A stretch of 64,000 bases of DNA from Gloeobacter morelensis MG652769 (GTDB lineage Bacteria; Cyanobacteriota; Cyanobacteriia; Gloeobacterales; Gloeobacteraceae). Every line of letters begins with the position of its first letter. The stretch's first letter is position 1. The notes beneath the pieces were generated by a model. That model was not told where the DNA came from. It ran no database searches and saw nothing but the letters and a program-made list of their open reading frames with translations. Shown here in pieces: positions 3,315 to 57,483 of the stretch. The stretch spans positions 2,232,001-2,296,000 of the forward strand of contig NZ_CP063845.1 in the NCBI RefSeq assembly GCF_021018745.1, read 5' to 3'. Both the position numbers and the translations under genes were made by a program.

Positions 3315-3371
3315 TGGTTTGGGTAGTGGATGTCTGCATTTGGACTATTGTGACGCACTGGACGCTCCTGC

Positions 3372-3572
3372 GGCGAAGCGGCTGGCTCGCCCCATCGCCG
3401 CAGTCGACACGCGTCGTGCAGGCCCTGTAGGAGTAGGCCGATCCCACCCGCCAATGCTCGTTCCCGACCGTGCCTTTAAGTCCGGGGGGTGTCGGGGGGC
3501 TGGCAGCCCCTGACGCGGGGAGGGGGAGAGCGCGAGAGGGGAACCCGAAGGGGGTTCCGCCTCTCGCTCACC
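3372..3572 (-). repeat. Structured 3'-end repeat, copy A (subfamily 1)
   Basis: This is one of four copies of a dispersed repeat in the window. It is listed in the orientation in which it follows mscL. The strongest element is a hairpin at 3532-3567, with arms GCGAGAGG and CCTCTCGC enclosing a second stem of GGAACCC with GGGTTCC and a CCTTC loop. It begins 72 bases after the mscL stop. A second hairpin built on GGGGCT and AGCCCC follows. The rest of the unit (3372-3480) is shared with copy B but not with copies C and D. Together with flanks it fills the 324-base gap between folC and mscL. Open frames through it encode Gly/Arg/Pro-rich peptides and are probably spurious. Confidence 0.85.
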
Positions 3573-3638
3573 CGCTGTCGAGCCAAACCAAAGAACCAAA
3601 GAACCCAAAAACGGCAAAAAATCCGGGAATGCCGCGGC

Positions 3639-4055
3639 TCACTTCGTCGGCGAACCCACCAGCACCGAAGTACAAAAAGGGCAGCGGCGCGCAGTGATCG
3701 GAATTTCGCTGGCGCACTCGGGACACTTCTTGGTGGTCGGGTCGGGGGACGGTTCCTTGCGCGCCTGCGAAATCAGGGCGTTCACCGGCAGCACGACCAA
3801 AAAGTAGACCACCGCCGCAATGATCAAAAACGAGACGACCGCGTTGATGAATTGGCCGTACATGAACTTGCTGTTGTTGATCGTAAAGTAGAGGCCGGAG
3901 AAGTCCGGCTGGCCGCCGATGGCGGCAATTAGCGGTGTGATGAAGCTTGAAACCAGGGTTTCGACGATTTTTCCGAAGGCGGCACCGATGACCACGCCCA
4001 CGGCTAGGTCGACGACATTCCCCCGCAGCAAAAATTGTTTGAATCCGTCCAGCAT
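3639..4055 (-). CDS. mscL: Large-conductance mechanosensitive channel with C-terminal zinc ribbon
   Basis: This inner-membrane channel opens under membrane tension to release solutes during hypo-osmotic shock. The 138-residue protein has the amphipathic N-terminus MLDGFKQFLLRGNVVDLAVG, TM1 at about 15-42 with the AVGVVIGAAFGKIV pore-lining core, and TM2 at about 71-92. The start at 4055 is chosen over an upstream ATG at 4091 because MscL proteins begin at this point. The unusual part is the tail: Cys111, 114, 125 and 128 form a CPEC-x10-CPFC zinc ribbon instead of the usual charged helical bundle. This is seen in some MscL relatives. The 3' end is followed by structured repeat copy A. Confidence 0.95.
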   Translation of the reverse strand: MLDGFKQFLLRGNVVDLAVGVVIGAAFGKIVETLVSSFITPLIAAIGGQPDFSGLYFTINNSKFMYGQFINAVVSFLIIAAVVYFLVVLPVNALISQARKEPSPDPTTKKCPECASEIPITARRCPFCTSVLVGSPTK

Positions 4056-4091
4056 CTTGAAACCTCCAATTGTCGAGATAAACATACACAA

Positions 4092-4748: not shown

Positions 4749-5240
4749 ATGAACGATATTCTGGTATTGGCGATCGACGCGGCGCGCGCCCGTTTTTTGG
4801 CCCTGGAGCGGCCGGAATTTCCCGAATGGGAGCCCGGGCCGACGCTTGTCGAAGGGGAGGCGCTCATCAACGCCGAGCGCGAGGCGGCCGGGCGGCAGCT
4901 GTGGTCTGAGATTAAGACGGGGCGCAACCGTGGACCGGGAGCCGGTCCTGCCCACGCCTACGACGATCACCGCGAAAATCACGCGGAGGAGTTCGAGCGG
5001 CGCTTTGCCAGGTTGGTCGCCCAGGAGGCCGCCCGCCGCGCTGACCGGTTTCAGGTGCGTCAGGTAGTGCTGGTGGCGGAGCGGCGGATGCTCGGGTTTG
5101 TCCGCGAGGCGCTCGCTCCGCTATTGGGTGCTCAGGTGCGCCTGGAGGAGTTGGCTAAGGATCTCTGCAAACTGAGGGCGGCTGAGTTGCAGGCGCATCT
5201 GGCGGGGGAAAACTTGCTGCCGGCGCACCGGCGGCCATAG
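4749..5240 (+). CDS. Host attachment protein family (PF10116-like)
   Basis: This 163-residue cytosolic protein resembles the family annotated as required for attachment to host cells. Supporting features are the N-terminal ILVLAIDAARARFLALE strand-helix, the central HAYDDHRENHAEEFERRFAR segment, and the C-terminal VRQVVLVAERRMLGFVREAL and LAKDLCKL motifs. The family fold resembles release-factor eRF1 domains and its biochemical role is poorly understood, so the name should not be read as function in a free-living cyanobacterium. It begins 4 bases after the 4436 gene, suggesting a two-gene operon, and its 3' end is followed by structured repeat copy B. Confidence 0.8.
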   Translation: MNDILVLAIDAARARFLALERPEFPEWEPGPTLVEGEALINAEREAAGRQLWSEIKTGRNRGPGAGPAHAYDDHRENHAEEFERRFARLVAQEAARRADRFQVRQVVLVAERRMLGFVREALAPLLGAQVRLEELAKDLCKLRAAELQAHLAGENLLPAHRRP

Positions 5241-5289: not shown

Positions 5290-5505
5290 TGCACGAGGGT
5301 CTGTGGGTGCGAGAGGCGGAACCCCCTTCGGGTTCCCCTCTCGCGCTCTCCCCTCCCCGCGTCAGGGGCTGCCAGCCCCCGACACCCCCGGACTTAGGGG
5401 CACGGTCGAGAACGAGCATTGGCGGGTGGGATCGGCTTACTCCTACAGGGCCTGCACGACGCGTGTCGACTGCAGCGATGGGGCTGGCTCGCCGCTGAGC
5501 TGCGA
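5290..5505 (+). repeat. Structured 3'-end repeat, copy B (subfamily 1)
   Basis: This copy lies downstream of, and in the same orientation as, the host-attachment-type gene. The main hairpin is at 5309-5344: arms GCGAGAGG (5309-5316) and CCTCTCGC (5337-5344), an unpaired C, then GGAACCC/GGGTTCC closed by a CCTTC loop. A second hairpin is at 5361-5383 around GGGGCTGCCAGCCCC. The tail from about 5395 to 5505, including TTACTCCTACAGGGCC, matches copy A closely but is absent from copies C and D. The unit and its flanks fill the 343-base gap before the porin. There is no T-run directly after the main hairpin, so it is not a textbook terminator. Confidence 0.85.
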
Positions 5506-5583
5506 AGGCATTGGGGTGTGGGGTGGCTCAGGCAAACGCCGTGCAAAACTTGGACAGGAAACGGTTTTTCCCTGGCACCTACT

Positions 5584-7101
5584 CTAAAAATCGAACGTTG
5601 CGCGCAGGGTGCCGACTTGTACGGTTGGGTTTTCGCGGTTGTTTTCGGGATTGAAGATCGTGAGCAACCCGGGGGTGATCGAGATGCGGTCGGTGAGGCG
5701 GATGCGATAGAAAATTTCGAGATGCACTGCCCCGTCCGGATCCTGAAACTTGTTGCCTAGATCGCTACGCACCACGCGGGGCGGTTGGCCGACGACGAGG
5801 CCGCCCAGGTTGCCCTTGCCTCCCAGGTCCGCGAAGGCAAAGGAGAGCGCGTAGTTGACGATGCTGGATCCTGGGCGGGAGGGTAGATCGTCGGCGCGCG
5901 CCTCGGTGAGGCCGAACCAGCCGCCGATTTGCAAGCCTGGGGAAATTTTCCAGAACCCCTGCAGGCCGTAGGAATCGGCGAAGACGCGCTTGCTGTCGCC
6001 GTCGAAGGGGTCGTTGGCCCGTTCGCTGCCGGTGCCGGTGTCGAGAGCGTTGAAGGTGCGGATATAGCTCAAGCCAATCCCGGTGGTCTTGCTCGGCTGG
6101 AAGTTCAATTGGGCGAGTATCCCGGTGGGCAGGAAGCGGTCGGTCTGCCTGGCATCGTCGAGATCGTCGTCCTCGGCCAGGGAGCCGAAGTCGGCCACGA
6201 AACCCGCCGAGAGGGTGAGGGTCTTGGTGGCCTCCCAGCGCACGCCCGCGCCGGTGCCGCTGATGAGCCGGTAAATGGCGTTGCGCTGGCCGAAGCGCGA
6301 GATGGCACCGCTGCCGGTGCTGCCCACCAGCGGATGGAGTGCGTCGGTAAAGTCGTCGAGGCGGCCCCCCAGAGCTCCGATGTAGACGCGCAGATTTTTG
6401 GCGAGGTCGAAGCGGTACTCCAGCCGGGCGACGTTGAAGACCCGGTTGGTGTTGCCCCCTACCCCGAGACGGGCCATGTCGCTGCCGGCAAGCGAACCGT
6501 AGTTGGGAAAATCGCCCGCCTGCAGCCGCACCCGCAGGCGGTCGTTGCGGCCGAAGGTCGTGTCGAAGGTGAGGCGTGCCCGGCCGCTGAAGCGCACGGC
6601 GGTGCTGTCGTCCTCGTCCTCGTCGTCGATCGGGTTGCTGAGGGTGCTCAGGCCGAAGATCACCTGGCCGCTCATGGTGGTTTTGCTGTCAAATGGGGCG
6701 TACTTGGCCCGATCCAGGCGCTTTTCGAGGTTTTCGAGGCGGGCGGTGAGCGATTCGCGCTCGGGAAGAAACTCCAGTTGCAGCCGCCGCAGGGCGTCGA
6801 ATTGTTCGGCATCCAGCGCATTTGCCTGTTGCGCCGATTTTTCGACGGCCGCGAGCACCCGGCCGAGGCGAACGGCAAATTCGGCGCGCGAGATGAGCAG
6901 CGCATGCGGATGGGCAGGGTCCGGCAGGCCCAGCCGGCGCTCCAGGCCCGCAAGCGTGCGCTCGGCCCACTCGCCTGAGCGTACATCCGCCAGCTGCGAG
7001 ACGGCAGGGTCCGGCTCAGCTGCCAGTGGCCCCGCTCCGAGCAACAGCGAGGCGAGCAGGGCGGCTAACCCGCGATTTCGGCGGGCGCTACGGCGGGCCA
7101 T
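5584..7101 (-). CDS. Outer-membrane porin of the cyanobacterial SLH/OprB-like family
   Basis: This 505-residue protein probably forms an outer-membrane beta-barrel for ion or small-solute uptake. A signal peptide spans about residues 1-28 (twin Arg, then [18 protein letters not shown]). It is followed by a short SLH-like region (about 36-90, with [19 protein letters not shown]), a helical coiled coil (about 98-132, [20 protein letters not shown]) and alternating beta strands to a C-terminal Phe (GTLRATFDF), typical of barrel proteins. This order matches cyanobacterial iron-uptake-type porins. Its ATG lies 37 bases inside the 3' end of the epimerase gene, so translation is probably coupled. 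It is the last gene of the polysaccharide operon. The transported substrate cannot be deduced. Confidence 0.85.
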
Positions 7102-16746: not shown

Positions 16747-16814
16747 GTACCAGGTATCAGGGGGCTTATAGAACCGATGTAGACAGTCCGGGATGGCCCG
16801 GCGACGTTGCCAGC

Positions 16815-17000
16815 CATTTTGCCGCAGTCGCCACGCAAAGCGTGCACGCACTGGAAACATTCGCCAAGCCCACCAACCCACTCTCCCGCCAGCCGCGCCG
16901 ATAAGTCCGGGGGGTGTCGGGGGGTGGCACGCCCCCGACGCGGGGAGGGGGAGAGCGCGAGAGGGGAACCCGAAGGGGGTTCCGCCTCTCGCTCACCCGC
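16815..17000 (-). repeat. Structured 3'-end repeat, copy C (subfamily 2)
   Basis: This copy is downstream of, and in the same orientation as, the CHAT gene. The main hairpin is at 16957-16992 with the same arms GCGAGAGG and CCTCTCGC as the other copies, starting 137 bases after the CHAT stop. The distal part, including CACGCAAAGCGTGCACGCAC and GGAAACATTCGCCAAGCCC, matches copy D rather than A and B. Within it CACGCAAAGCGTG is a small hairpin of its own. The unit fills most of the 382-base space between the 16450 gene and CHAT. The remaining 17000-17128 shows nothing recognisable apart from A-rich runs. Confidence 0.83.
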
Positions 17001-17128
17001 TGTCGTGCGCAGCCAAAAAAATCAAAAGCGCGCAGACAAACCCAGCCATCTCACCCAGATTCGACCTGAAAAAAAAAGGCACAAAGAAAGTTGCCTCCTG
17101 GCACCCCATCGCCCGCACCGAGCGAACC

Positions 17129-20056
17129 CTATCGCCCGGCTGCGCTCTGAAAGAGCCCCTGTACCGGCCGCCAGTCCCCCGAGAGAATAAAGGACGACCA
17201 GTAGTACGGATGGCTGTACTGTTTGCTTTTGAGCAAATTGAGCTGAGCTTTGCGCAGCCCCTCGCCGCGGCCTGCCCCCTGCTGCAACTGCCGGTAGTAC
17301 TGCACCATCAGATCGCGCGTACCCTCGTCTTCGACCTGCCAGAGGCTCACCAACTGGCTTTCCGCACCCGCCAGCGTCAGCGCCCGCTTGAGGCCGTAGA
17401 CCCCTTCGCCGCTCGCGATTTCCCCCAGTCCCGTCTCACAGGCCGAAAGCACCACCAGCCGGGTGCCCTGCAAATTCAGCCCCGACAGTTCCAACGCCGT
17501 GAGCGCCCCATCGTCCCCGCCGCTGTCGCGCTGGTTGAACCCGGCCAGAACCAGCCCCGAGCGCAGCAGCGGATTTTTGGCTTGCTCCTCGACCTCCTCC
17601 AGAAAAAACCCGTGGGTGGCGATGTGCAAAATCCCCGGCCCCCGCACTTGCTTGAGGGCGTTCTCGGTGGCATTTTTGCCGGTAAGCACCCGCGCCTCGG
17701 GCAGCAACTCAGCAATTGCCTCCGCCTCCTCAGCCGTAGCCGGCAGCGGATCGTAGCGAAGTTTGCCCAGATCTGCCGCGACCGGTTCGGTGCTGCGCCT
17801 GCGTCCCTCCCCCGCCGAGCGCGTCCGGGCGGTCTCGGCATTATCAAAGTTTGGATTGGCGACAATCAGCGCGGATTGGACAGCAGGTTGCGAGCGGCCC
17901 AATCTAAGCAAATCCCGGCCGGAACTTAAATAGCTGATCGTGTAGTTCTCGACCAGATAGCGGTTGCGCTCATCGATCAGGGTGGCAAAGGGCAACAAAT
18001 TGAGCATTCCGTCCGGGGAAATCAAGATGCGGCGAGGGTTGCCCAGCTTGCGCCGAATGGGAGCCATCAACTTCTGTTCGAGGCGGCGGGCCAGGGGTTT
18101 GAGCTTTGCTGCGGAACGCTCGCTATTTTGCAACTGTTGGCGTAAGGCTGTCGCGGCAGCATTGAGAGACGTCGCTTCTCCCAGATCCAGCCACTGCAAC
18201 TTCCCCTGACTATCCAGCAGATAGGCAGCGTAGCGCGCCGCCCCAAATTGTTTGTCCCGCTCAACTGCCTGCAAATTTAGCGGCCGGTACTGAACGATTT
18301 CGACCAAGGCCGTGTCCGCCGGCAACTGCTGCCGTACCGAGTCGAGCGTCACTGCGGTGCTCTGCCGGACAAACTCGGCACTGCGGCGGCTGAGGCTAGT
18401 CTCTAACTGCTCTGCCTGGGTCTCTAGAGCGGCAACCTTCGCCCGATACTGCTCGGGAGTATCGTCTTCCAATCCTCGGAAAACAAGGGCCGCCAGATTA
18501 GAGCGGGTTGCCGTCAATTCATCCAGCAGCTTCTGCTCGTCGGGTTCGAGGCGTTGGCGCAAAGCGCTATTGGTGTCGCTGAGGGCGTCGAGCAGTCTGC
18601 CTTTGCGTCGCAAGACAGTGGTCATGGCCAAGCGGGCTGCCTCCGTGTCCTGCGACGCCACTTGCTGGTGAAGCCAGAGAGCAGTGTCGGTGGTTTTGGC
18701 AAGGGTAGCCAGGTAATCGCGCTTGCGCTTCTCTGAACCGGTGCTGAGAGCCAGTGTCAGGTTGCGCTCTTGGATACCAAGGCTGCTCTCAAGCAGTTGC
18801 ACAGCAGATTGAAGTTTCTTTTGCCGCGTGCGTAATACGGCCAACGTTTCAAGGGATTCACTAATAAATGGGTGATCTGGAGGAAGAGCCTTCTTGCGAA
18901 TGGATAAAGCTCTTAGATGGATAGAATCGGATTCATCGAATTTGCCTTGGTAGTTGTACAGCTCAGCCAAGCTGAACAACGTTCTTGCCACATCCGGATG
19001 CTCGTTGCCTAAACTCTTTTGCCGAATTGTGAGAGACTGCTGGAGCAGAGATTCGACCTGCGAATACTTACCAGCATATAAGTACAGGGTTGCTAAGTTA
19101 TTGAGGCTTCTTGCCGTGTTGGGGTTTTCGGGGCCAAGAGTCTTTTCCGCAATCGCAAGAGCTCGCCTGTACAACGGCTCAGCTTGACTATATTTACCCC
19201 AATCTCTATATACATCAGCCAAGCCATTGAGACTAAATGCTAAGTTGGGGTGATCAGGACCAAGAGCACCCTCTGTGATTTTGAGAGCTTGTAGATATAG
19301 ATTCTCTGCCTTTGCATATTGTGCCCCTTGATTTCTATAAACTTCAGCCAAATTGTTTGTAGCTGTAGCAACACTGGGGTGTGTGGATCCGAGAGTTTTT
19401 TCTAAGATAGTTAGGGCACGGCTCAGCAAGGGCTCAGCTTCAATGTATTTGCCCTGGTAACTATAAAGCGTTGCCAAGTTGCTAAGGTTTTTGGCCACTT
19501 CAGGATGTTCCAGACCCAGACCTTTCTCTCGGATAGCTAGAGCACGTAGGAGTAAGGGTTCGCCTTCAGTATATTTACCCTGGTTAATGTGTAGAGCCGC
19601 TAAGTTATTAAGGCTTCTTGCGACATCTGAATGTTCTGCACCAAGTGCTTTTTCCCGCGTTGCTAAAGCACGACGTAAAAGGGGCTCAGCTTGTTCATAC
19701 CTTCCTTGACGTATGTAGAGAACTGCCAGAGCGTTCAGACTCGTAGCTACTTCCGGGTGTTCTAGGCCAAGCACACTTTCTCGAATTATAATTACTTGCT
19801 GAGCGAGCGGGACTGCTTCTGCGTACTTGCCACTTTCCCTTAGCTTTTCTACCTGTGAACTAAGGCCGTGTGCTTTTTGCAACTGTGCTGCAGGCGAACT
19901 TCCTACACCAGGTTGATCCTGGCTGATGGCTGGCTGAGAATAAGTTAAAAGCAACCATACGGACAAGCAAAGACCCGCCCAATAGCCATGCATTGCTTTG
20001 GTGTCGTAAGTATATGTTTTAGCTTTTACCTCTAACCCTCTCTCCTGCGGTTTCAT
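17129..20056 (-). CDS. TPR-CHAT protein (caspase-like peptidase domain with tetratricopeptide repeats)
   Basis: This 975-residue protein has a hydrophobic segment near the N-terminus (about 26-46, a signal peptide or anchor), about eight TPR units of 42 residues (about 85-430, consensus YxEAEPLLRRALAIREKxLG), a helical linker, and a C-terminal CHAT domain. The CHAT catalytic pair is His815 (HIATHGFF) and Cys873 (LSACETGLGE), both intact, so it should be an active cysteine peptidase of the caspase clan. The start at 20056 has AAGGGG just upstream. An internal ATG at 19993 would begin at the hydrophobic segment. The TPR half is AT-richer than the CHAT half. CHAT-TPR proteins occur in bacterial conflict and cell-death systems, but no partner gene is adjacent here. 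Confidence 0.9.
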   Translation of the reverse strand: MKPQERGLEVKAKTYTYDTKAMHGYWAGLCLSVWLLLTYSQPAISQDQPGVGSSPAAQLQKAHGLSSQVEKLRESGKYAEAVPLAQQVIIIRESVLGLEHPEVATSLNALAVLYIRQGRYEQAEPLLRRALATREKALGAEHSDVARSLNNLAALHINQGKYTEGEPLLLRALAIREKGLGLEHPEVAKNLSNLATLYSYQGKYIEAEPLLSRALTILEKTLGSTHPSVATATNNLAEVYRNQGAQYAKAENLYLQALKITEGALGPDHPNLAFSLNGLADVYRDWGKYSQAEPLYRRALAIAEKTLGPENPNTARSLNNLATLYLYAGKYSQVESLLQQSLTIRQKSLGNEHPDVARTLFSLAELYNYQGKFDESDSIHLRALSIRKKALPPDHPFISESLETLAVLRTRQKKLQSAVQLLESSLGIQERNLTLALSTGSEKRKRDYLATLAKTTDTALWLHQQVASQDTEAARLAMTTVLRRKGRLLDALSDTNSALRQRLEPDEQKLLDELTATRSNLAALVFRGLEDDTPEQYRAKVAALETQAEQLETSLSRRSAEFVRQSTAVTLDSVRQQLPADTALVEIVQYRPLNLQAVERDKQFGAARYAAYLLDSQGKLQWLDLGEATSLNAAATALRQQLQNSERSAAKLKPLARRLEQKLMAPIRRKLGNPRRILISPDGMLNLLPFATLIDERNRYLVENYTISYLSSGRDLLRLGRSQPAVQSALIVANPNFDNAETARTRSAGEGRRRSTEPVAADLGKLRYDPLPATAEEAEAIAELLPEARVLTGKNATENALKQVRGPGILHIATHGFFLEEVEEQAKNPLLRSGLVLAGFNQRDSGGDDGALTALELSGLNLQGTRLVVLSACETGLGEIASGEGVYGLKRALTLAGAESQLVSLWQVEDEGTRDLMVQYYRQLQQGAGRGEGLRKAQLNLLKSKQYSHPYYWSSFILSGDWRPVQGLFQSAAGR

Positions 20057-20193: not shown

Positions 20194-21333
20194 TCAGTTT
20201 GAGTCTTGAGATACAGCTTGCGAGTCGAGGAACAAGATCATGTTCTTCGTCTGCGTTTGCGCTTCGTCTGCCCGCGAATTCACAGGCAAAATTGAGTCGA
20301 TGAACAAGATCATGTTCCTCCCTTCTGTTTGAGCCTTATCTGCCAGTGTAGTTGCAGGAGAGTTGGAGTCGATGAACCAGATCATGTTCTTCCCTTCTGT
20401 TTGAGCCTCATCCCTAAGTGGTTCAGCAAAGAAATCAGTATTTGCCGGCTCTATTTCGGATCCAACTTCAGTCAGTGATAGCTTCCAGATGACGTTTTCA
20501 CCGCTAGACCGATTGCGCCAAAGGATTTCCGCTTTACCATCTTGATCGAAGTCTTTAGCGCTGCCAATCTGCCAGTTCAAATCTGGTTGTGATGGCAAAG
20601 CCGCAATTGAGACAAGTTTCGCACCGTTCATAAACCAGATAAGATTCTCGCCACTAGATTTGTTTCTCCAGACGATGTCTGGCTTGGCGTCCCCATTGAA
20701 ATCTGCAAAACTTGCTAACTGAAAGTCGATATCACTCAAAGTCGGCAAAGTAGTGTTTGAGAGACGGGTCATACCGTTCATAAGCCATACGGAATTCTGG
20801 CCAGAGGCTTGATTGCGCCAAACCAGGTCGGGTTTGTTGTCTGCATTAACGTCCGCTACACTTACCATCTGCCAGTTGGGCTGAGATGGAAGCGGCAACA
20901 AAGTGCTTGAAATTAGGGACGTACCATTCATGAGCTACAGAGAGTGCTGGCCACTGGTCTTGTTACGCCAGACAATATCTGGTTTGGTGTCGCCGTTGAA
21001 ATCTCCTGTGCCCACGATCTGCCAATTGCGATCAGTCTGCGAAGGTAAAGAAGCGGTAGACACATATGATGCACCGTCCATAAACCAAACAGCATTCTCG
21101 CCAGCTTCCGGGCCAGCACCGTAATTTCGCCAAAGAATATCCGGATGACCATCACAGTTGAAGTCACTGTTACCGCAACTTATCGATTGAGCAGAGGCCG
21201 GAGGAATCGACGCCATTAATGCGGAGCTCAAAAGAAGCGGAATAAGACTAAGACTACTTGCCAAACTTGCCGGTGCTGTCGAATGCCACACATTTGCAAG
21301 GATCGTTACCTGTTTGCGTTCGAGCATGCCCAT
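20194..21333 (-). pseudogene. FG-GAP/VCBS repeat secreted protein, interrupted by an in-frame TAG
   Basis: The reading frame from ATG 21333 to 20194 encodes a secreted VCBS/FG-GAP repeat protein of 379 codon positions, paralogous to the next two genes. A single TAG at 20935-20937 splits it into 132 and 245 residues. The frame continues without shift: SGQHSL-stop-LMNGT aligns with SGQNSVWLMNGT in the other repeats, so the stop replaces a Trp codon (TGG to TAG). A signal peptide lies near residues 18-47. Repeats of about 45 residues (DFNGDxKPDIVWRNKxSGxNxxWFMNGxxxxS) follow. The C-terminus has three near-identical 24-residue units. It may be a recent pseudogene, a readthrough case or a sequencing error. 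Confidence 0.85.
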
Positions 21334-21402
21334 CTCCTAATGCAAATAATGCAAAATACCAGCGCATTGTACAGCTACTTTGGCAAAACCTCAACACGCA
21401 GA

Positions 21403-21458
21403 CTGCAATAGCAAATACAAATAAGCTCACTATGGCTTATTTGTATTTGCTATTGCAG
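21403..21458. repeat. Perfect 24-bp inverted repeat between two VCBS genes
   Basis: Positions 21403-21426 and 21435-21458 are exact reverse complements over 24 bases, separated by the 8-base loop TCACTATG. The arms are AT-rich (key segment GCAAATACAAATAAGC). It starts 26 bases after the stop of the upstream VCBS gene on the minus strand and would form a long hairpin in RNA from either strand. It lacks the GC-rich stem and trailing T-run of an ordinary terminator. It could be a terminator of unusual type, a processing site, or a tiny mobile-element relic. Confidence 0.9.
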
Positions 21459-21483
21459 ACCATTGAACCTGGCTGTCAATCCT

Positions 21484-22467
21484 TCAGTTCTGTCCGTAGG
21501 CAATAGCCTGCGAGTCGAGAAACAAAATCATGTTCTCAGCATCTGTCCGAGGATTGCTCGTCAAACCGTTACTGGCTGTGCGATCGACCGGTGCGTACAC
21601 GTTCACAGGCGGCAAGAAGGGGGTCGAGGAGACTTTAGTGCCGTTCAGGTTCCAGACGGCGTTCTCACCGCTAGTCTGGTTGCGCCAGAGGACTTCGGCC
21701 TTGCCGTCGTTGTTGAGGTCTTTCGCCCCACCGATTTCCCAGTTGAGATCGGCCTGGGTGGGCAGGTTGGCGGTCGAGGTGCGGGTGGTGCCGTTCATGT
21801 ACCAGATGGTGTTCTGGCCGGTGGTGCTGTTGCGCCAGAGCAAATCGGGCTTTTTGTCGGCGTTGAAGTCGCCCACACCCACGGCCTGCCAGGCGGTGCC
21901 AGTCCAGGTGGGCAACTCAGCAGTTGAAGTCCGGGTGGTGCCATTCATCAGCCAGACGGAATTTTCGCCCGTAACTTTGTTGCGCCAGACCAGGTCGGAC
22001 TTGGCGTCGGCGTTGAAGTCCGCCACACCCACCATCTGCCAGTTCGGATCGCTCTGGGCAGGTAGGGTGGCCGTCGAGAGGCGCTGGGTGCCGTTCATCA
22101 GCCACACGGAATTCGCACCGGTGGCCTTGTTGCGCCAGATGATATCGGGTTTGCCGTCGGTGTTGAAATTGCCCGTCCCCACGATCTGCCAGTCGGGATT
22201 GGTCTCCACCGGCAGATCGGCGTAAGAAAGATAGGTGGTGCCGTTCATGAACCACACGCCCGTCTTGCCGGCGTTAAAAGTGCCGTAGTTGCGCCAGAGG
22301 ATGTCCGGCTTGCCGTCGCAATTGAAATCGCTCTGGGCGCAGGCAGTCTGGGCGGGCGCGGAGCTGCTTGCGAGCACCAGCGCCACACCGGCCATCGACG
22401 CGATCAGCAGGCCCCCCCGGACGCCAATCGCCTGACCCATGACACCTGGAATGTCGAAAATCTTCAT
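21484..22467 (-). CDS. FG-GAP/VCBS repeat secreted protein, intact paralogue 1
   Basis: This 327-residue exported protein has an N-terminal hydrophobic segment (about 16-40, GGLLIASMAGVALVLASSSAPAQ broken at its cleavage region), then six or so VCBS units of about 45 residues with the Ca-binding-like core DFNADxKPDLLWRN and the spacer WFMNGTTxxSxAxLPxQ. Such repeats form beta-propellers like integrin alpha-chains. The C-terminus ends NMILFLDSQAIAYGQN, matching the tag that is triplicated in the neighbouring interrupted gene. It belongs to a tandem set of three paralogues. The ligand and location (periplasm or outside) are not known. Confidence 0.88.
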   Translation of the reverse strand: MKIFDIPGVMGQAIGVRGGLLIASMAGVALVLASSSAPAQTACAQSDFNCDGKPDILWRNYGTFNAGKTGVWFMNGTTYLSYADLPVETNPDWQIVGTGNFNTDGKPDIIWRNKATGANSVWLMNGTQRLSTATLPAQSDPNWQMVGVADFNADAKSDLVWRNKVTGENSVWLMNGTTRTSTAELPTWTGTAWQAVGVGDFNADKKPDLLWRNSTTGQNTIWYMNGTTRTSTANLPTQADLNWEIGGAKDLNNDGKAEVLWRNQTSGENAVWNLNGTKVSSTPFLPPVNVYAPVDRTASNGLTSNPRTDAENMILFLDSQAIAYGQN

Positions 22468-22504
22468 GAAAAAATGCTCCTTCGCTACAACCTGGGCGGA
22501 AGTC

Positions 22505-23617
22505 TCACTTGGTAATTGCCGACCAGGGGCTGGGGGTGCCCTGGATTTGCGTTGTGCTCGGAAGACCGTTGGCGGCGTTCAACGACGCGACGTTGACCAC
22601 CTGGGGCAGGTAGCCGGTGAGATTGAAGGTGATGCCGTTCATCAGCCAGAGGGCGCTCTCGCCGGTGACCTTGTTGCGCCAGACAATGTCGGTCTGGCCG
22701 TCCTGGCCTGCTATCACTTGCGGAATCGAGCCGCTCTGAAGCTTGCCGTAGTCGCCCACGCCGACGATCTCCCAGTCGAGATTGCTCACCGGCGAAAAGG
22801 TCGCCGATTCGGTGAAGGTGGTGCCGTCGAGGTACCAGACGCGGTGGGTGCCGGCCTCGCTGCCGCTGCCGTAGTTGCGCCAGAGAATGTCGGGCTTGGC
22901 GTCGCCATTGAAATCGCCCGCCCCCACAATCCGCCAGTTAAGGTCGCTCTCCGCCCCAAGGATGGTCGAAGAGACCCGCACGGCCCCGTTCATGTACCAG
23001 ACGCGCACCTCGCCGGTGGCTGTGTTCTGCCAGAGGATGTCCGGCCGGGCACTGTCGCCGAAATTGTCCACAGCGACGATTTGCCAGTCGAGGTCCGACT
23101 CCACAGGCAGCGGGATCTGCTCGAAGTCATCATCGTCGTCATCGTCGTCGGTAAAGCCACGGCCGTATCGATTGTCGTCATCATCGTCGTCATCTTCCAG
23201 CGACCAGACGTAGTTCAGGCCGCTACCAAAGTCGCGCCAGACGATATCCGTCTTGCCGTCAGCCGTGAAGTCGCCGGTGCCCCCGATTTGCCAGTTGAGA
23301 TCGGTTTGGGCGGGCAGGCTGACCGCCGAAAGGTAGGTCAGGCCGTCCATGTACCAGACCAGATTTTTGCCCGCGTCGGCACCGGTGCCGAAGTTGCGCC
23401 AGACGACGTCGGGTTTGCCGTCGCAGTTGAAGTCGGTGCGCGCGCAGGCGGGTGCTTGGGCGGGTGCTGAAGTGCTGAAGACCACCAACGCCGCGCATAG
23501 GCCCGAGGCGGCCAGCAACCCCAGCCCCAGGCGGTGAAGCGCCGATCGCCCGCGGGGGCGAGAAGCAGCGAATGCCCTTTGGAATATCAAGATACCTTGC
23601 TCCTTTTCGTGCTTCAT
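22505..23617 (-). CDS. FG-GAP/VCBS repeat secreted protein, paralogue 2 with acidic insert
   Basis: This 370-residue protein has a basic N-region and a hydrophobic signal segment (about 30-53, ending SAPAQA), followed by five VCBS/FG-GAP units (for example DFNGDAKPDILWRNYGSG). The third unit is interrupted by a strongly acidic loop consisting of two Asp runs around NRYGRGFT (about residues 140-165), encoded by GTC/ATC-rich repeats at 23125-23200. This loop is absent from the other paralogues and may bind calcium or be a slippage product. It starts 231 bases from the divergent sigma-factor gene, so the two share one intergenic control region. Confidence 0.87.
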   Translation of the reverse strand: MKHEKEQGILIFQRAFAASRPRGRSALHRLGLGLLAASGLCAALVVFSTSAPAQAPACARTDFNCDGKPDVVWRNFGTGADAGKNLVWYMDGLTYLSAVSLPAQTDLNWQIGGTGDFTADGKTDIVWRDFGSGLNYVWSLEDDDDDDDNRYGRGFTDDDDDDDDFEQIPLPVESDLDWQIVAVDNFGDSARPDILWQNTATGEVRVWYMNGAVRVSSTILGAESDLNWRIVGAGDFNGDAKPDILWRNYGSGSEAGTHRVWYLDGTTFTESATFSPVSNLDWEIVGVGDYGKLQSGSIPQVIAGQDGQTDIVWRNKVTGESALWLMNGITFNLTGYLPQVVNVASLNAANGLPSTTQIQGTPSPWSAITK

Positions 23618-48158: not shown

Positions 48159-49436
48159 TTCAAGGGGTGACAGACAAGGCTACGTGACGCTCAGCATCAA
48201 CCTTGCAGCCCGCAACCCGCGTCGATAGTCCCGGGCTTTGTTCCTACAGGTGTCTATCAAATTGTCGAGCCAGTCACCCAAACCCAGCACCGCCTGTGCC
48301 CAGTGCCAAGCGTACTGGCCAACCCGAAAAGGGCTGTGACGCCGCAAGCGTCGCTGCTTTTCTTGAACCCTGCCGGTGTACTTGTCCACCCCTATTCGCT
48401 CCAGTTGCAGACCGTTGAGCATCGCTGCACTCCAGGCAATCGATGCTAACAACAGTACCCGCATCATCCGTTCCTGACTGACGCGTACTTCTTCAAGATG
48501 GTAGCCACAGGATTTGACGTCTTTGTGCCAAACTTCGATTCCCCAACGGTCAGCATACAGCTCAAGTGCTTCGTGTAACTTTGGCCGGTCTGTCAAAATA
48601 TACCAGCCTTCACCCGGTTGCATATTCCGGATTTTTCGTTTCCAGATACAAGCAATATTGAACGGCTCGAATCCCTTGTTTTTACGATTTTTGGTGACGC
48701 GCACTCCGCCAAGAAACATCGACATTCCAGGTTGTAGTTCCAAAGACTTTAGCGAGCGAAAGTCTGCACCTTGTTGTCGAATATATTCACTGATTTTTAA
48801 TCTCAAGCAAAAGCCGGCCTTTCGACTGCGCAACCAATTGGCCAGCTTGACACTGCAAAACTCTCTGTCCCCCAACACCACGACGCGATAGGCAGAAAGT
48901 AGAGACAGAACCGGTGAGAGTAACAGTTGTTGGTCTTCGAGGTTACTGTTGCCAGGATGGTCGAGCAAGGTCCAATTGAGTGGCAAGGCATGTCTATGCC
49001 ACACCAGGGCCACTGTCAGCACGTTGTAGTGCCACCAGTCGGTGCGGTCGATCGCCAGTTTGAGTGTGGTTGTCTTGGAAAAGTGGGTCAGTACCAGGTA
49101 CAAAACCAATGGGAACCAAGCCTCGAAAATATTGAGTTTGTCGAGGGTGAGAAAGCGTTGGAGAGCGCGCTTGCGACTGTCGGCAGTGATCGGCAGCGGC
49201 AGTGCCTGGGAGAGTTTGCCCAAGGCGAGCTGTTTGTGGGTTTGCAAAGTGGCGACAAGCAAATGCAAAAACAGAGACTGTCGCGCAGTGAGCAGGTGTG
49301 CGAAGAAGGTCTGGTAGAATGCAGGCATCATTGTTTTTGGATGGACTTGGGCGACATCCCAAGTCCATTTTCCTATGTAGCGATGCCTGGAATGCTTGTC
49401 CAGTCCGGTTTGTGAGCTACTCTGTCACCCCTTGAA
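48159..49436 (-). mobile_element. IS4-like insertion sequence, 1278 bp, intact
   Basis: Both ends carry the perfect 16-base inverted repeat TTCAAGGGGTGACAGA (48159-48174, and its complement at 49421-49436). The element is flanked by a 9-base direct repeat GGATTTTGG (48150-48158 and 49437-49445), the target duplication. A single transposase gene fills it on the minus strand. The 9-base duplication is within the range known for IS4-type elements. Ends, duplication and transposase are all intact, so it should be mobile. Confidence 0.95.
48180..49331 (-). CDS. IS4-family DDE transposase
   Basis: This 383-residue transposase has the DDE catalytic triad: Asp95 (KLAIDRTDWW), Asp155 (VVLGDREF) and Glu266 within the IS4-type Y-R-E-K signature YADRWGIEVWHKDVK (Tyr259, Arg262, Glu266, Lys270). 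The length is typical. The start MMPAFYQTFF at 49331 lies about 90 bases inside the right end. The reading frame is undamaged. It runs opposite to the Uma2 gene it interrupts. Confidence 0.92.
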   Translation of the reverse strand: MMPAFYQTFFAHLLTARQSLFLHLLVATLQTHKQLALGKLSQALPLPITADSRKRALQRFLTLDKLNIFEAWFPLVLYLVLTHFSKTTTLKLAIDRTDWWHYNVLTVALVWHRHALPLNWTLLDHPGNSNLEDQQLLLSPVLSLLSAYRVVVLGDREFCSVKLANWLRSRKAGFCLRLKISEYIRQQGADFRSLKSLELQPGMSMFLGGVRVTKNRKNKGFEPFNIACIWKRKIRNMQPGEGWYILTDRPKLHEALELYADRWGIEVWHKDVKSCGYHLEEVRVSQERMMRVLLLASIAWSAAMLNGLQLERIGVDKYTGRVQEKQRRLRRHSPFRVGQYAWHWAQAVLGLGDWLDNLIDTCRNKARDYRRGLRAARLMLSVT

Positions 49437-50048: not shown

Positions 50049-50336
50049 ATGCCCGACATCTACACGCCGCGCCCCGATATCGTGATGCGCTTTCTCAAAG
50101 AAGCCGGTTTCGAAAGCCAGGTGCAGCCGACGATTTTGAAGGATCGGCCGCGGGACATTACCTATCGCTTCCGCACCGGCGATACCTACGTGGAGTTCTA
50201 CGTCCATGACATCAAAGCCCTCCCGGAGCCGCCCGGACCGTTGTTTGAGCCTGCTTCCGCCGCGGGCGGTGCGCTTGTCGGTGCCGCTTTGACCGCGGCT
50301 GTGGGCTGGTGGTTCGTCCGGCGCCGCATTGTGTAG
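50049..50336 (+). CDS. Small protein with C-terminal membrane anchor, 95 residues
   Basis: The product begins MPDIYTPRPDIVMRFLKEAG behind AGGAGA 8 bases upstream. It has a small alpha/beta domain (SQVQPTILKDRPRDITYRFR, TYVEFYVHDIKAL) and a C-terminal Gly/Ala-rich membrane helix (AAGGALVGAALTAAVGWWFV) ending RRRIV. It is probably tail-anchored with the domain in the cytoplasm. No family is recognised. The upstream frame is open for another 145 codons (see the separate entry), so a 240-residue form cannot be excluded. Structured repeat copy D follows its stop. Confidence 0.65.
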   Translation: MPDIYTPRPDIVMRFLKEAGFESQVQPTILKDRPRDITYRFRTGDTYVEFYVHDIKALPEPPGPLFEPASAAGGALVGAALTAAVGWWFVRRRIV

Positions 50337-50374
50337 TTTTCGCTTTTAAATTCTTTGGCTCCTTGGCTTTGCCC

Positions 50375-50562
50375 GACAGTCTGTGGGTGCGAGAGGTGGA
50401 ACCCCTTCGGGTTCCCCTCTCGCGCTCTCCCTCCCCGCGTCGGGGCGTGCCACCCCGACACCCCCGGACTTCAGGGCCCGGTCAGCGGGAGAGGTGATGG
50501 GTGGGCTTGGCCAATGTTTCCAGTGCGTGCACGCTTTGCGTGTTGACTACGGCGAAGAGGTC
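50375..50562 (+). repeat. Structured 3'-end repeat, copy D (subfamily 2)
   Basis: This copy is downstream of and in the same orientation as the 50049 gene. The main hairpin is at 50389-50423 with arms GCGAGAGG (50389-50396) and CCTCTCGC (50416-50423), beginning 53 bases after the stop. A second hairpin GTCGGGG/CCCCGAC is at 50439-50459 with loop CGTGCCA. The tail (GGGCTTGGCCAATGTTTCC and GTGCGTGCACGCTTTGCGTG) matches copy C. The distal edge abuts what looks like a truncated coding fragment. Confidence 0.83.
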
Positions 50563-50843
50563 GTCTGAAAACCTCAACGGACAACGGTTGCAGTCCTGAC
50601 GCCTATTCTACAAAGTACGATTTAATTGGTGAGTACGAGGGTGCACAAACTGCCTTCGAGAATGAACAGGACAGTGCACCATCTGTTCTTCTCCGGCTGA
50701 AGCAATTGCGGGATCGTGCCCTCGCCCGCATTGCCGACCTCGGCGACGGCAACGGTCTTGCCGGTAGCAAGACCAACAATCGTCCTCCTTCGCCCCTGGA
50801 ACCTGGTGATCTAGCCGCCGACCCGCAAATCGGGCCAGACTGA
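50547..50843 (+). pseudogene. Possible 3' remnant of a coding sequence next to repeat D
   Basis: After an in-frame stop at 50544-50546 the plus strand is open for 98 codons to TGA 50841-50843. The translation from about 50580 (DAYSTKYDLIGEYEGAQTAF, ENEQDSAPSVLLRLKQLRDR, ALARIADLGDGNGLAG) has a protein-like composition and ends in a Pro/Gly-rich tail. There is no ATG, GTG or TTG near its beginning, so it looks like the C-terminal part of a gene cut off at the edge of the repeat. The family is not recognised. It lies 81 bases before lipA. Confidence 0.45.
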
Positions 50844-56874: not shown

Positions 56875-57483
56875 CTACGGCTTCGGATTGGCTTCACCTG
56901 CCGGGCGGGTGGTGTTCTTGGGCTGCAGGTTCGGGTTGGTGTTGCTGACACCGGAGGGCGGATCGGCGATTACAGCGTCGTTGGACCGACTCTGGCTCTC
57001 AGGTAGGTCAGTGGTGCGCGTGACATCGACGCGATCGGAGCTTTTGCCCATGCCTGAGGAGGTCTTGTTCGACTTTTTCGTGGAGCTGTCGGGCTTCATC
57101 GGGTCCATCGAAGTGCTCGGGCGCTCAGCCGCAGGTGTTCCGGCGCTCGGGGTGGCGTCGGTGCGCGGCTCACTGGTCGGACCGCTCTTGTCGTTCATCG
57201 GGCTGGAACGCGGGTTGTCGCTGCTCGGGGTCATGGGCTGCATCTTATTTTTGCTGTCCATCGAGCTGCCGGGGCGCTCGGCCGCGGGGGTACCGGCGCT
57301 TGGGGTGGCGTCGGTGCGCGGCTCGGTGCTGCGCGGGCCGCTCTCGTCGGTGGTCGGGTTGGAGCGCGGGTTGCTGGGAGTGGTCGAACTGCTACCGCCG
57401 TAGGGGGTGGTCGTCTGGGCCATGCCGGGCGCAGCCGACAGCAAAAGCCCCAGAGCGAGCAGTCCGGCGATGTGCATCTTCAT
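56875..57483 (-). CDS. Exported low-complexity Ser/Thr/Pro-rich protein
   Basis: This 202-residue protein has a signal peptide (KMHIAGLLALGLLLSAAPGM, cleavage near AQ) and a Pro/Ser/Thr/Asp-rich disordered mature part. Two copies of RTDATPSAGTPAAERP (about residues 56-71 and 111-126) mark an internal duplication, each followed by SSMD or STSMD. No globular domain is visible. It may be a surface or periplasmic linker-type protein. It is followed by the 12-bp hairpin. Confidence 0.68.
   Translation of the reverse strand: MKMHIAGLLALGLLLSAAPGMAQTTTPYGGSSSTTPSNPRSNPTTDESGPRSTEPRTDATPSAGTPAAERPGSSMDSKNKMQPMTPSSDNPRSSPMNDKSGPTSEPRTDATPSAGTPAAERPSTSMDPMKPDSSTKKSNKTSSGMGKSSDRVDVTRTTDLPESQSRSNDAVIADPPSGVSNTNPNLQPKNTTRPAGEANPKP

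Follow-up and report, generated by a model that had tools for sequence, protein, structure and literature searches.

If the arms of a hairpin change between copies of a repeat and still pair, does this tell us that RNA or DNA structure has been selected, or can a dispersed repeat come to such pairing by other means? The question is raised by a repeat in Gloeobacter morelensis MG652769, of which one copy (copy D) lies at 50375..50562 on the + strand of the 64,000 nucleotide stretch of DNA that was analysed here (the window; positions without a genome name refer to it). A sequence-only reading had described four copies, A to D, with two common hairpins and two different tails, and had taken pairing kept through sequence change to indicate selection on structure.

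Four copies in the window

All four copies are present at the loci described, and the order H1, pyrimidine-rich spacer, H2 is common to them, as is the H1 sequence GCGAGAGG[C/T]GGAACCCC(C)TTCGGGTTCCCCTCTCGC. Copy D, found by DNA search, has H1 at 50389..50423, H2 at 50439..50459 (GTCGGGG, loop CGTGCCA, CCCCGAC) and, in a tail of what we call the CTTT type, a hairpin CACGC-TTT-GCGTG at 50530..50542, all on the + strand and located from sequence and folds. Copy B (about 5290..5503, +) has an ACG-type tail and lies 3' of a Host_attach/baeRF gene (4749-5240); its H1 is at 5309..5344 and its H2, located from the sequence, at 5361..5383 (both +). Copy A (3370..3590, - strand) lies 3' of an ORF (3639-4091, -) that we take to be mscL, with H1 at 3532..3567 and H2, again from the sequence, at 3491..3514 (both -). 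Copy C (16767..17064, -) lies 3' of a TPR/CHAT gene (17129-20056, -), has H1 at 16957..16992 and, from the sequence, H2 at 16916..16939 (both -), and has both outer ends of an inverted-repeat frame (the TIR frame, below): TCGAATCTGGGTGAG on the left (17050..17064, -) and a degenerate copy on the right (16767..16779, -) that was recognized by eye, the end-pattern search having no match there. H2 reads GTCAGGGGCTGCCAGCCCC..GAC in A and B and GTCGGGGGCGTGCCACCCCCCGAC in C; D is atypical, its short H2 (7 bp, 7-nt loop) being parsed in only 2 of 114 copies. The interval 50375-50562 thus holds copy D as described, but the feature extends further, to the outer repeats of C and to a probable fragment of an 85-nt flank repeat (FR, below) just 3' of D at 50558..50610 (+; a weak match, E 0.0013, to query positions 32-84). 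The ordinary genes between A and B (the Host_attach/baeRF gene and the presumed mscL) led us to reject an A-B composite transposon.

Several other features of these loci were noted. A DDE_Tnp_1 transposase gene (48180-49331, -) lies close to D, 455 nt of the left flank of D matches the right flank of the copy at 2906265 of the same genome at 99.6% identity, and the minus strand of the core (e.g., 50427-50470) has three runs of at least four G's, a possible quadruplex-forming stretch.

Family size and distribution

The genome that holds the window (G000) is 5,102,396 bases in 3 contigs, with a chromosome of 4,921,229 bases; G001 (4,659,019 bases), G002 (a draft of 100 contigs) and G003 are genomes of the same genus. 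Copy D as a DNA query against the 5.1-Mb G000 gave at least 41 matches, with 40 candidates scored (its own locus matched at E 1.7e-87 and the next best at 2.9e-49), and copy B gave at least 43 (40 candidates scored). Across 39 genomes B found copies in three, G000 included, all of the same genus. A covariance model of the core (R1), which was built from a first core alignment (A1) whose selection pattern omits the H1 allele GCGCTT, gave at least 53 matches in G000, 47 in G001 and 36 in G002, none in G003 and none in four of five other genomes of the order (150 candidates scored per genome); three weak matches in G008 (E 9e-4 to 3e-3) were treated as chance. We retained 132 matches with E up to 8e-6, excluding four weaker ones in G000-G002 (E above 1e-3), and removed two that overlapped another match on the opposite strand, which left at least 130 copies: 52 in G000, 45 in G001 and 33 in G002. 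Copies A to D belong to this one interspersed repeat family.

The plasmids searched with D, the phages searched with B and the viral contigs searched with one exact H1 pattern gave no match, and on these searches a phage or plasmid origin was rejected. In an Rfam scan the only match in the window was a tRNA, and those at D were all sub-threshold with none near the gathering score, so the repeat is not a described Rfam RNA at that score. We found no description of it in the titles and abstract openings of the papers listed for the terms tried, and the main text of PMC3733652, on CGTC-tagged REPs, has no mention of Gloeobacter.

Where do the copies lie? By gene calls from our own ORF scoring rather than from annotation, 79 of the 130 are between convergent genes, 36 in tandem gaps and 11 in divergent gaps, with one side uncalled for 4. 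Compared with element-free gaps of at least 60 nt from the fetched stretches and the window, gaps with an element are more often convergent (55/88 versus 26/160, p 2e-13) and less often divergent (9/88 versus 62/160, p 9e-7), p values that are too small because orthologous loci were counted as independent. The gene on the 5' side is on the same strand in 105 of 130 copies, and in the tandem regions, where orientation is informative, the strand bias is weak (23 versus 13). Pneumococcal repeats favour convergent gaps too, and PMC3049150 reads them as parasites tolerated where they are least harmful.

Tail types and outer ends

The tails of A and B have TACAGGGCC in common and those of C and D have GTGCGTGCACGCTTTGCGTG; their hairpins are CACG-ACG-CGTG in the ACG type and CACGC-TTT-GCGTG in the CTTT type. 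Are these unrelated sequences? Copy D is 79% identical to B across the whole 176 nt and 77% identical to A over positions 11-176, and, since it can be aligned with both along the tail, the two types are by this comparison diverged versions of one homologous tail rather than unrelated tails. Tail type could be scored in 111 of the 130 copies (79 ACG type and 32 CTTT type, the other 19 unscored), so the proposal of two tail subfamilies around one core does stand at the family scale; it needs amending in that the tails are homologous and that the form of H2, which had been taken to go with them, is partly tied to the tail (Cramer's V 0.37, 105 copies) and is not a clean subfamily marker. Tail type and right outer end are closely coupled (V 0.94; both could be scored in 73 of 130 copies), as are the left and right ends (V 0.80, 28 copies only), while H1 is loosely tied to the tail (V 0.21, 104 copies) and the H1 bulge to H2 (V 0.11); the core is therefore common to both outer frames. 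That one segmental duplication explains both tails is scarcely conceivable and was rejected: G000:3138530 and 4452316 do have 260 nt of left flank in common at 98.8%, but the repeat is found in three genomes at many places whose flanks are unrelated.

Mobile-element-like termini, for which the tails had been suggested as a place to look, do exist. The TIR frame, exemplified by copy C, has the ends TCGAATCCGGGT...ACGCGGATTCGA (also read as TCGAATCCGGGTGAA and ACGCGGATTCGA), usually beside TA, and is about 300-330 nt long. By eye, TA adjoins the left end in 12 of 17 cases and the right end in 6 of 8. A 14-base end pattern with at most one mismatch has 13 matches in G000 and 7 in G001, some of them not at elements, and the reversed control has none. 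Both ends are present in a few copies, and there are also derivatives: a 69-nt element that is little more than two inverted repeats, a copy lacking the hairpin core, and a left end that stands alone. The second frame, exemplified by copy B, is bordered by the 85-nt FR, which has CTAGAG/CTCTAG ends and is also found alone; the right-hand FR of B, AAAACTTGGACAGG...CACCTACTCTAA, is at 5545..5587 (+), and many copies have AAACC...CGGTTTTTACCCTGACACCTG in their left flank, some in their right. At E up to 1 the FR consensus matches G000 at 37 places, and 19 of these matches are below 0.001; 6 of these 19 adjoin a core copy and 13 do not. At G000:517802 (locus L298) FR stands alone, and after the same gene G001 and G002 have FR plus core. 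We also observed a core copy, G000:346608, whose flanks are divided between two G001 loci; this copy and the FR-only site are perhaps two products of one recombination.

Sites without the repeat and the search for a partner

The joined flanks of seven loci were compared with the three relatives. Continuous matches were found in G001 for three of the seven, and one of the three is clean: relative to G001:2583835-2584130, the insert at G000:4920233 runs from TIR to TIR. The other two continuous matches have no clean end at the repeat. One empty site is compatible with a single TA but is diverged, and a putative TA duplication rests on it. At the loci of D and G000:4135543 the flanks lie apart in G001 with other DNA between them; of the remaining two loci, one was matched mainly on its left and that of the 69-nt element was not found. 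At the D site G001 has ~480 nt of other sequence where G000 has ~370 nt, and the genomes realign downstream; by this alignment, either D and its FR fragment have taken the place of a stretch that G001 has or the opposite has happened.

No transposase gene lies inside the copies, which at about 200-330 nt are too short for one and are intergenic by our ORF calls. Of 10 proteins encoded beside five lone inverted-repeat matches, none has a transposase domain over its cut-off; one, a TetR-like protein, has a sub-cut-off HTH_Tnp match. G000 also has nine near-identical IS630-like elements of ~1.1 kb (e.g., L374) with ends TAAGTAGG. These were rejected as the partner, as their ends differ from those of the repeat, with only single near-matches (1-2 mismatches) in L374, L376 and L384.

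These properties are, we think, probably those of an old, non-autonomous, MITE-like interspersed repeat that spread in trans and whose cores were later exchanged between copies by gene conversion. A unit of ~100 nt of core (H1, pyrimidine-rich spacer, H2) and ~100 nt of tail, in either outer frame, would have been spread by a putative transposase, and copies away from promoters would have survived. Short-tract homologous recombination between copies would then have partly homogenized H1 in each genome, mixed H1 and H2 alleles across both frames and sometimes joined the flanks of different copies. Against the mobile-element part of this reading stand the partner that was not found in the two sets above, the absence of a recognizable left end in 74 of 130 copies, the two continuous flank matches that lack a clean end, and the dependence of the TA duplication on a single imperfect empty site.

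Hairpin alleles at orthologous sites

Many copies are at orthologous sites with flanks that are mostly 88-98% identical. If cores have been exchanged between copies, are orthologous cores still the most alike? We hand-picked 39 ortholog pairs from flank matches (some further pairs with both flanks matching are excluded) and compared agreement with that of shuffled partners. Right ends agree in 25 of 26 scorable pairs versus 13.3 with shuffled partners, and left ends in 15/16 versus 13.3; tail class agrees in 35/36, and is little informative because 31.9 is expected. Within the core, agreement is 17/39 versus 15.4 for the H1 allele, 17/37 versus 15.1 for the H2 base and 25/39 versus 20.1 for the H2 closing pair, with the H1 bulge as the exception (26/38 versus 20.3, p 0.02). 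The closest copy in the other genome is the ortholog in 4 of 39 pairs when cores are compared and in 11 of 39 when tails are. Expressed per nucleotide, the ortholog signal is 0.14 in H1, 0.16 in H2, and 0.26-0.34 in spacer and tail (0.26-0.30 in the tail alone); the left end reaches 0.37 and the sequence beyond the tail 0.57. When the null is taken from all copies the contrast is weaker, and the corresponding values are 0.34, 0.32, 0.38-0.46, 0.49 and 0.62. The weak excess in H1 and H2 together with the bulge agreement indicates that homogenization is partial, and, since the tail signal is little above that of the core, exchange extends beyond the hairpins into the tail.

The H1 alleles also differ by genome (p 1e-14, 120 of 130 copies): GCGCTT is found 8, 1 and 20 times in G000, G001 and G002, GGGTG 13, 0 and 0 times, and GGGTT 27, 44 and 7 times, respectively. 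For ten GCGCTT copies of G002, 14 of 16 listed orthologs have another allele. Alleles that are largely genome-specific at orthologous sites point to exchange between copies; spread of multi-base alleles from copy to copy is the simplest reading, and sorting of ancestral copies could contribute. H1 divergence at orthologous sites is about 3-4% versus roughly 7-15% in flank bins, which fits either selection or homogenization. At three loci (G000:346608, G002:C42:3248 and G001:3437388) the left flank of a copy corresponds to one copy in a relative and its right flank to another, a pattern to be expected where chromosomes are also rearranged by recombination between copies; the G002:C42:3248 case involves the neighbourhood of window copy A. 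As a separate observation, G001:2002625 and G000:217362 are the same locus by their flanks, with the element reversed relative to its neighbours.

Pairing in the hairpins

Alignment A1 gave 97.8% pairing, which is overstated because its selection pattern excludes the GCGCTT allele. A second alignment, A2, holds 125 of the 130 copies (103 distinct); those omitted are two whose core has decayed and three that lack H2. In A2, 95.3% of cells are paired versus 93.4% after shuffling (0 of 500 shuffles as high), and 7 pairs have two-sided changes versus 2.5 by shuffling (1 of 500 as high); both shuffles ignore relatedness, a problem that exchange between copies makes worse. Six slid registers, used as a control, have 1-3 pairs with two-sided change. 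Two pairs contribute most: the closing pair of H2 (41 C-G, 24 G-C, 13 unpaired, 25 gaps) and a pair in H1 (86 A-U, 7 C-G, 1 G-C, 1 G-U, 7 unpaired, 1 gap). When arms are swapped between copies, H1 and H2 are both weakened (for all copies, 0 of 300 shuffles were as stable). Arm counts cover the pattern-parsable copies, 116 for H1 and 114 for H2 out of 130, and so favour intact hairpins: the H2 closing pair is mismatched in 0 of 114 parsed copies versus 13 of 78 in A2.

Pairing is not kept everywhere. GCGCTT, a common allele present in 29 of 130 copies, disrupts the upper stem of H1 without compensation, and its hairpin folds at -18.6 versus -28.4 kcal/mol for the common one. In A2, columns 19-30 are unpaired in 28 of 96 scorable copies, 63-89 in 20 of 102 and 66-86 in 15 of 99. 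The RNA fold of D is little better than those of shuffled sequences (z -1.84, 11 of 200 as stable), and that of B is somewhat better (z -2.79, 1 of 200).

The statistics thus bear out that pairing has been kept through sequence change, but this is not by itself proof of RNA selection, and the step from one to the other is unsupported as it was made. The H2 change that had been cited, C-G to G-C at the loop, involves two bases 6 nt apart and is explained by one short-block exchange. At orthologous sites H1 and H2 alleles often differ, with a frequency not far from that for shuffled partners, which argues against the selection inference, as does the stem-breaking allele, and template switching can yield paired changes without any selection.

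Origin of the paired changes

If the repeat were a transcribed 3' element (an mRNA end protector, attenuator or bidirectional terminator) with compensatory paired changes, the pairing statistics on 125 copies, the effect of arm swapping, the low H1 divergence and the frequent same-strand gene on the 5' side (above) would all follow. So would two-sided changes in the outer stems, where the two positions lie far apart: A-U to C-G in H1 (1), and U-A to C-G (3) and C-G to U-A (1) in H2. However, the GCGCTT allele removes upper H1 pairs, columns 19-30 and 63-89 are often unpaired, the orientation bias in tandem regions is weak, and the fold of D is unexceptional for its composition. A scan of the D region (50300-50700) for intrinsic terminators (GC-rich stem plus T run) found 0 sites, by which a T-tract terminator was rejected there. 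On balance we regard RNA-structure selection as unlikely to be the explanation. Mutation alone might also keep pairing, if a polymerase that switches templates in a DNA hairpin copies one arm onto the other. PMC8794818 and PMC8604942 report that template switching creates and maintains hairpins, homogenizes their arms and inverts their spacers. Two copies have signs of such events at DNA hairpins: in G002:C26:49779 the complete H1 is by eye inverted, differing at one of 36 positions from the reverse complement of the usual hairpin, and G002:C4:8220 (by eye and folded) has an inverted loop GAAGG between perfected arms. Inversion was seen by eye in only these 2 of 130 copies, however, and alleles specific to a genome at many loci are unexplained without exchange between copies; as the whole explanation template switching is possible and somewhat doubtful.

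A REP/REPIN system mobilized by a tyrosine transposase (RAYT) was also considered. REPs, including the CGTC-tagged class (PMC3733652), resemble the Gloeobacter repeat in being palindromes 3' of genes and between convergent genes, and CGTC does precede H2 here. But CGTC lies inside the H2 stem and is CCTC in many copies, so that there is no unpaired conserved tag at an end like the GTAG or CGTC of REPs; the unit is about 200-330 nt and not 20-40; and Y1_Tnp matches number 0 in the carriers G001 and G002, 4 in G000 and 2 in the non-carrier G003. We rejected this origin as very improbable. Another reading makes H1-H2 itself a recombination-active DNA module, in which the hairpins promote short-tract exchange and inversion, the core homogenizes across dozens of dispersed sites more quickly than the outer frame does, and its presence in two mobile frames that are unrelated is owed to recombination, not transposition; we think this quite unlikely. 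In the preferred reading, that of a MITE-like repeat with later exchange of cores, the paired hairpin changes would come from short-block exchange and from template switching in hairpin DNA; selection for transcripts that can fold may have contributed to some extent.

Relation to known repeats

BIMEs, palindromes that lie 3' of genes or between convergent genes, are like the Gloeobacter repeat in these respects. MITEs are like it in being short and non-coding with terminal inverted repeats and deletion derivatives, and the nearest named case is Nezha of cyanobacteria, named in PMC3049150; the likeness is by description, and the Gloeobacter repeat differs in its GC-rich core and in that no partner IS was found for it. 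The same source describes the pneumococcal BOX, RUP and SPRITE repeats, which are likewise small, folded, interspersed, enriched in convergent gaps and thought to be non-autonomous and mobile, BOX being modular as well; they have another host and were likened without sequence comparison, whereas the Gloeobacter repeat has one core in two frames and genome-specific alleles. Correia/NIME repeats of Neisseria (also named there) similarly have internal sequence delimited by other repeats; here too the host is another and the likeness is of description, not of sequence, and the borders of the Gloeobacter repeat are of two kinds. A MITE-like hairpin repeat is an ordinary kind of thing, in this case in a little-studied lineage; its core is common to two frames, and its hairpins show partial concerted evolution. 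It carries the warning that paired changes in a dispersed repeat may stem from exchange between copies or from mutation at DNA hairpins and not from RNA selection. The ~130 copies in three genomes are also a countable system in which short-tract exchange between ~200-nt copies could be measured, and they provide markers of where rearrangements have broken the chromosome in a deep-branching lineage of cyanobacteria.

Two other repeated stretches of the window are of different kinds. Positions 20200-23600 contain many direct repeats of 51-155 nt, often ~150 nt apart, with long minus-strand ORFs, and are probably a repeat-rich protein region. Positions 57103-57171 and 57256-57324 form a 69-nt direct repeat of 87% identity, 153 nt apart.
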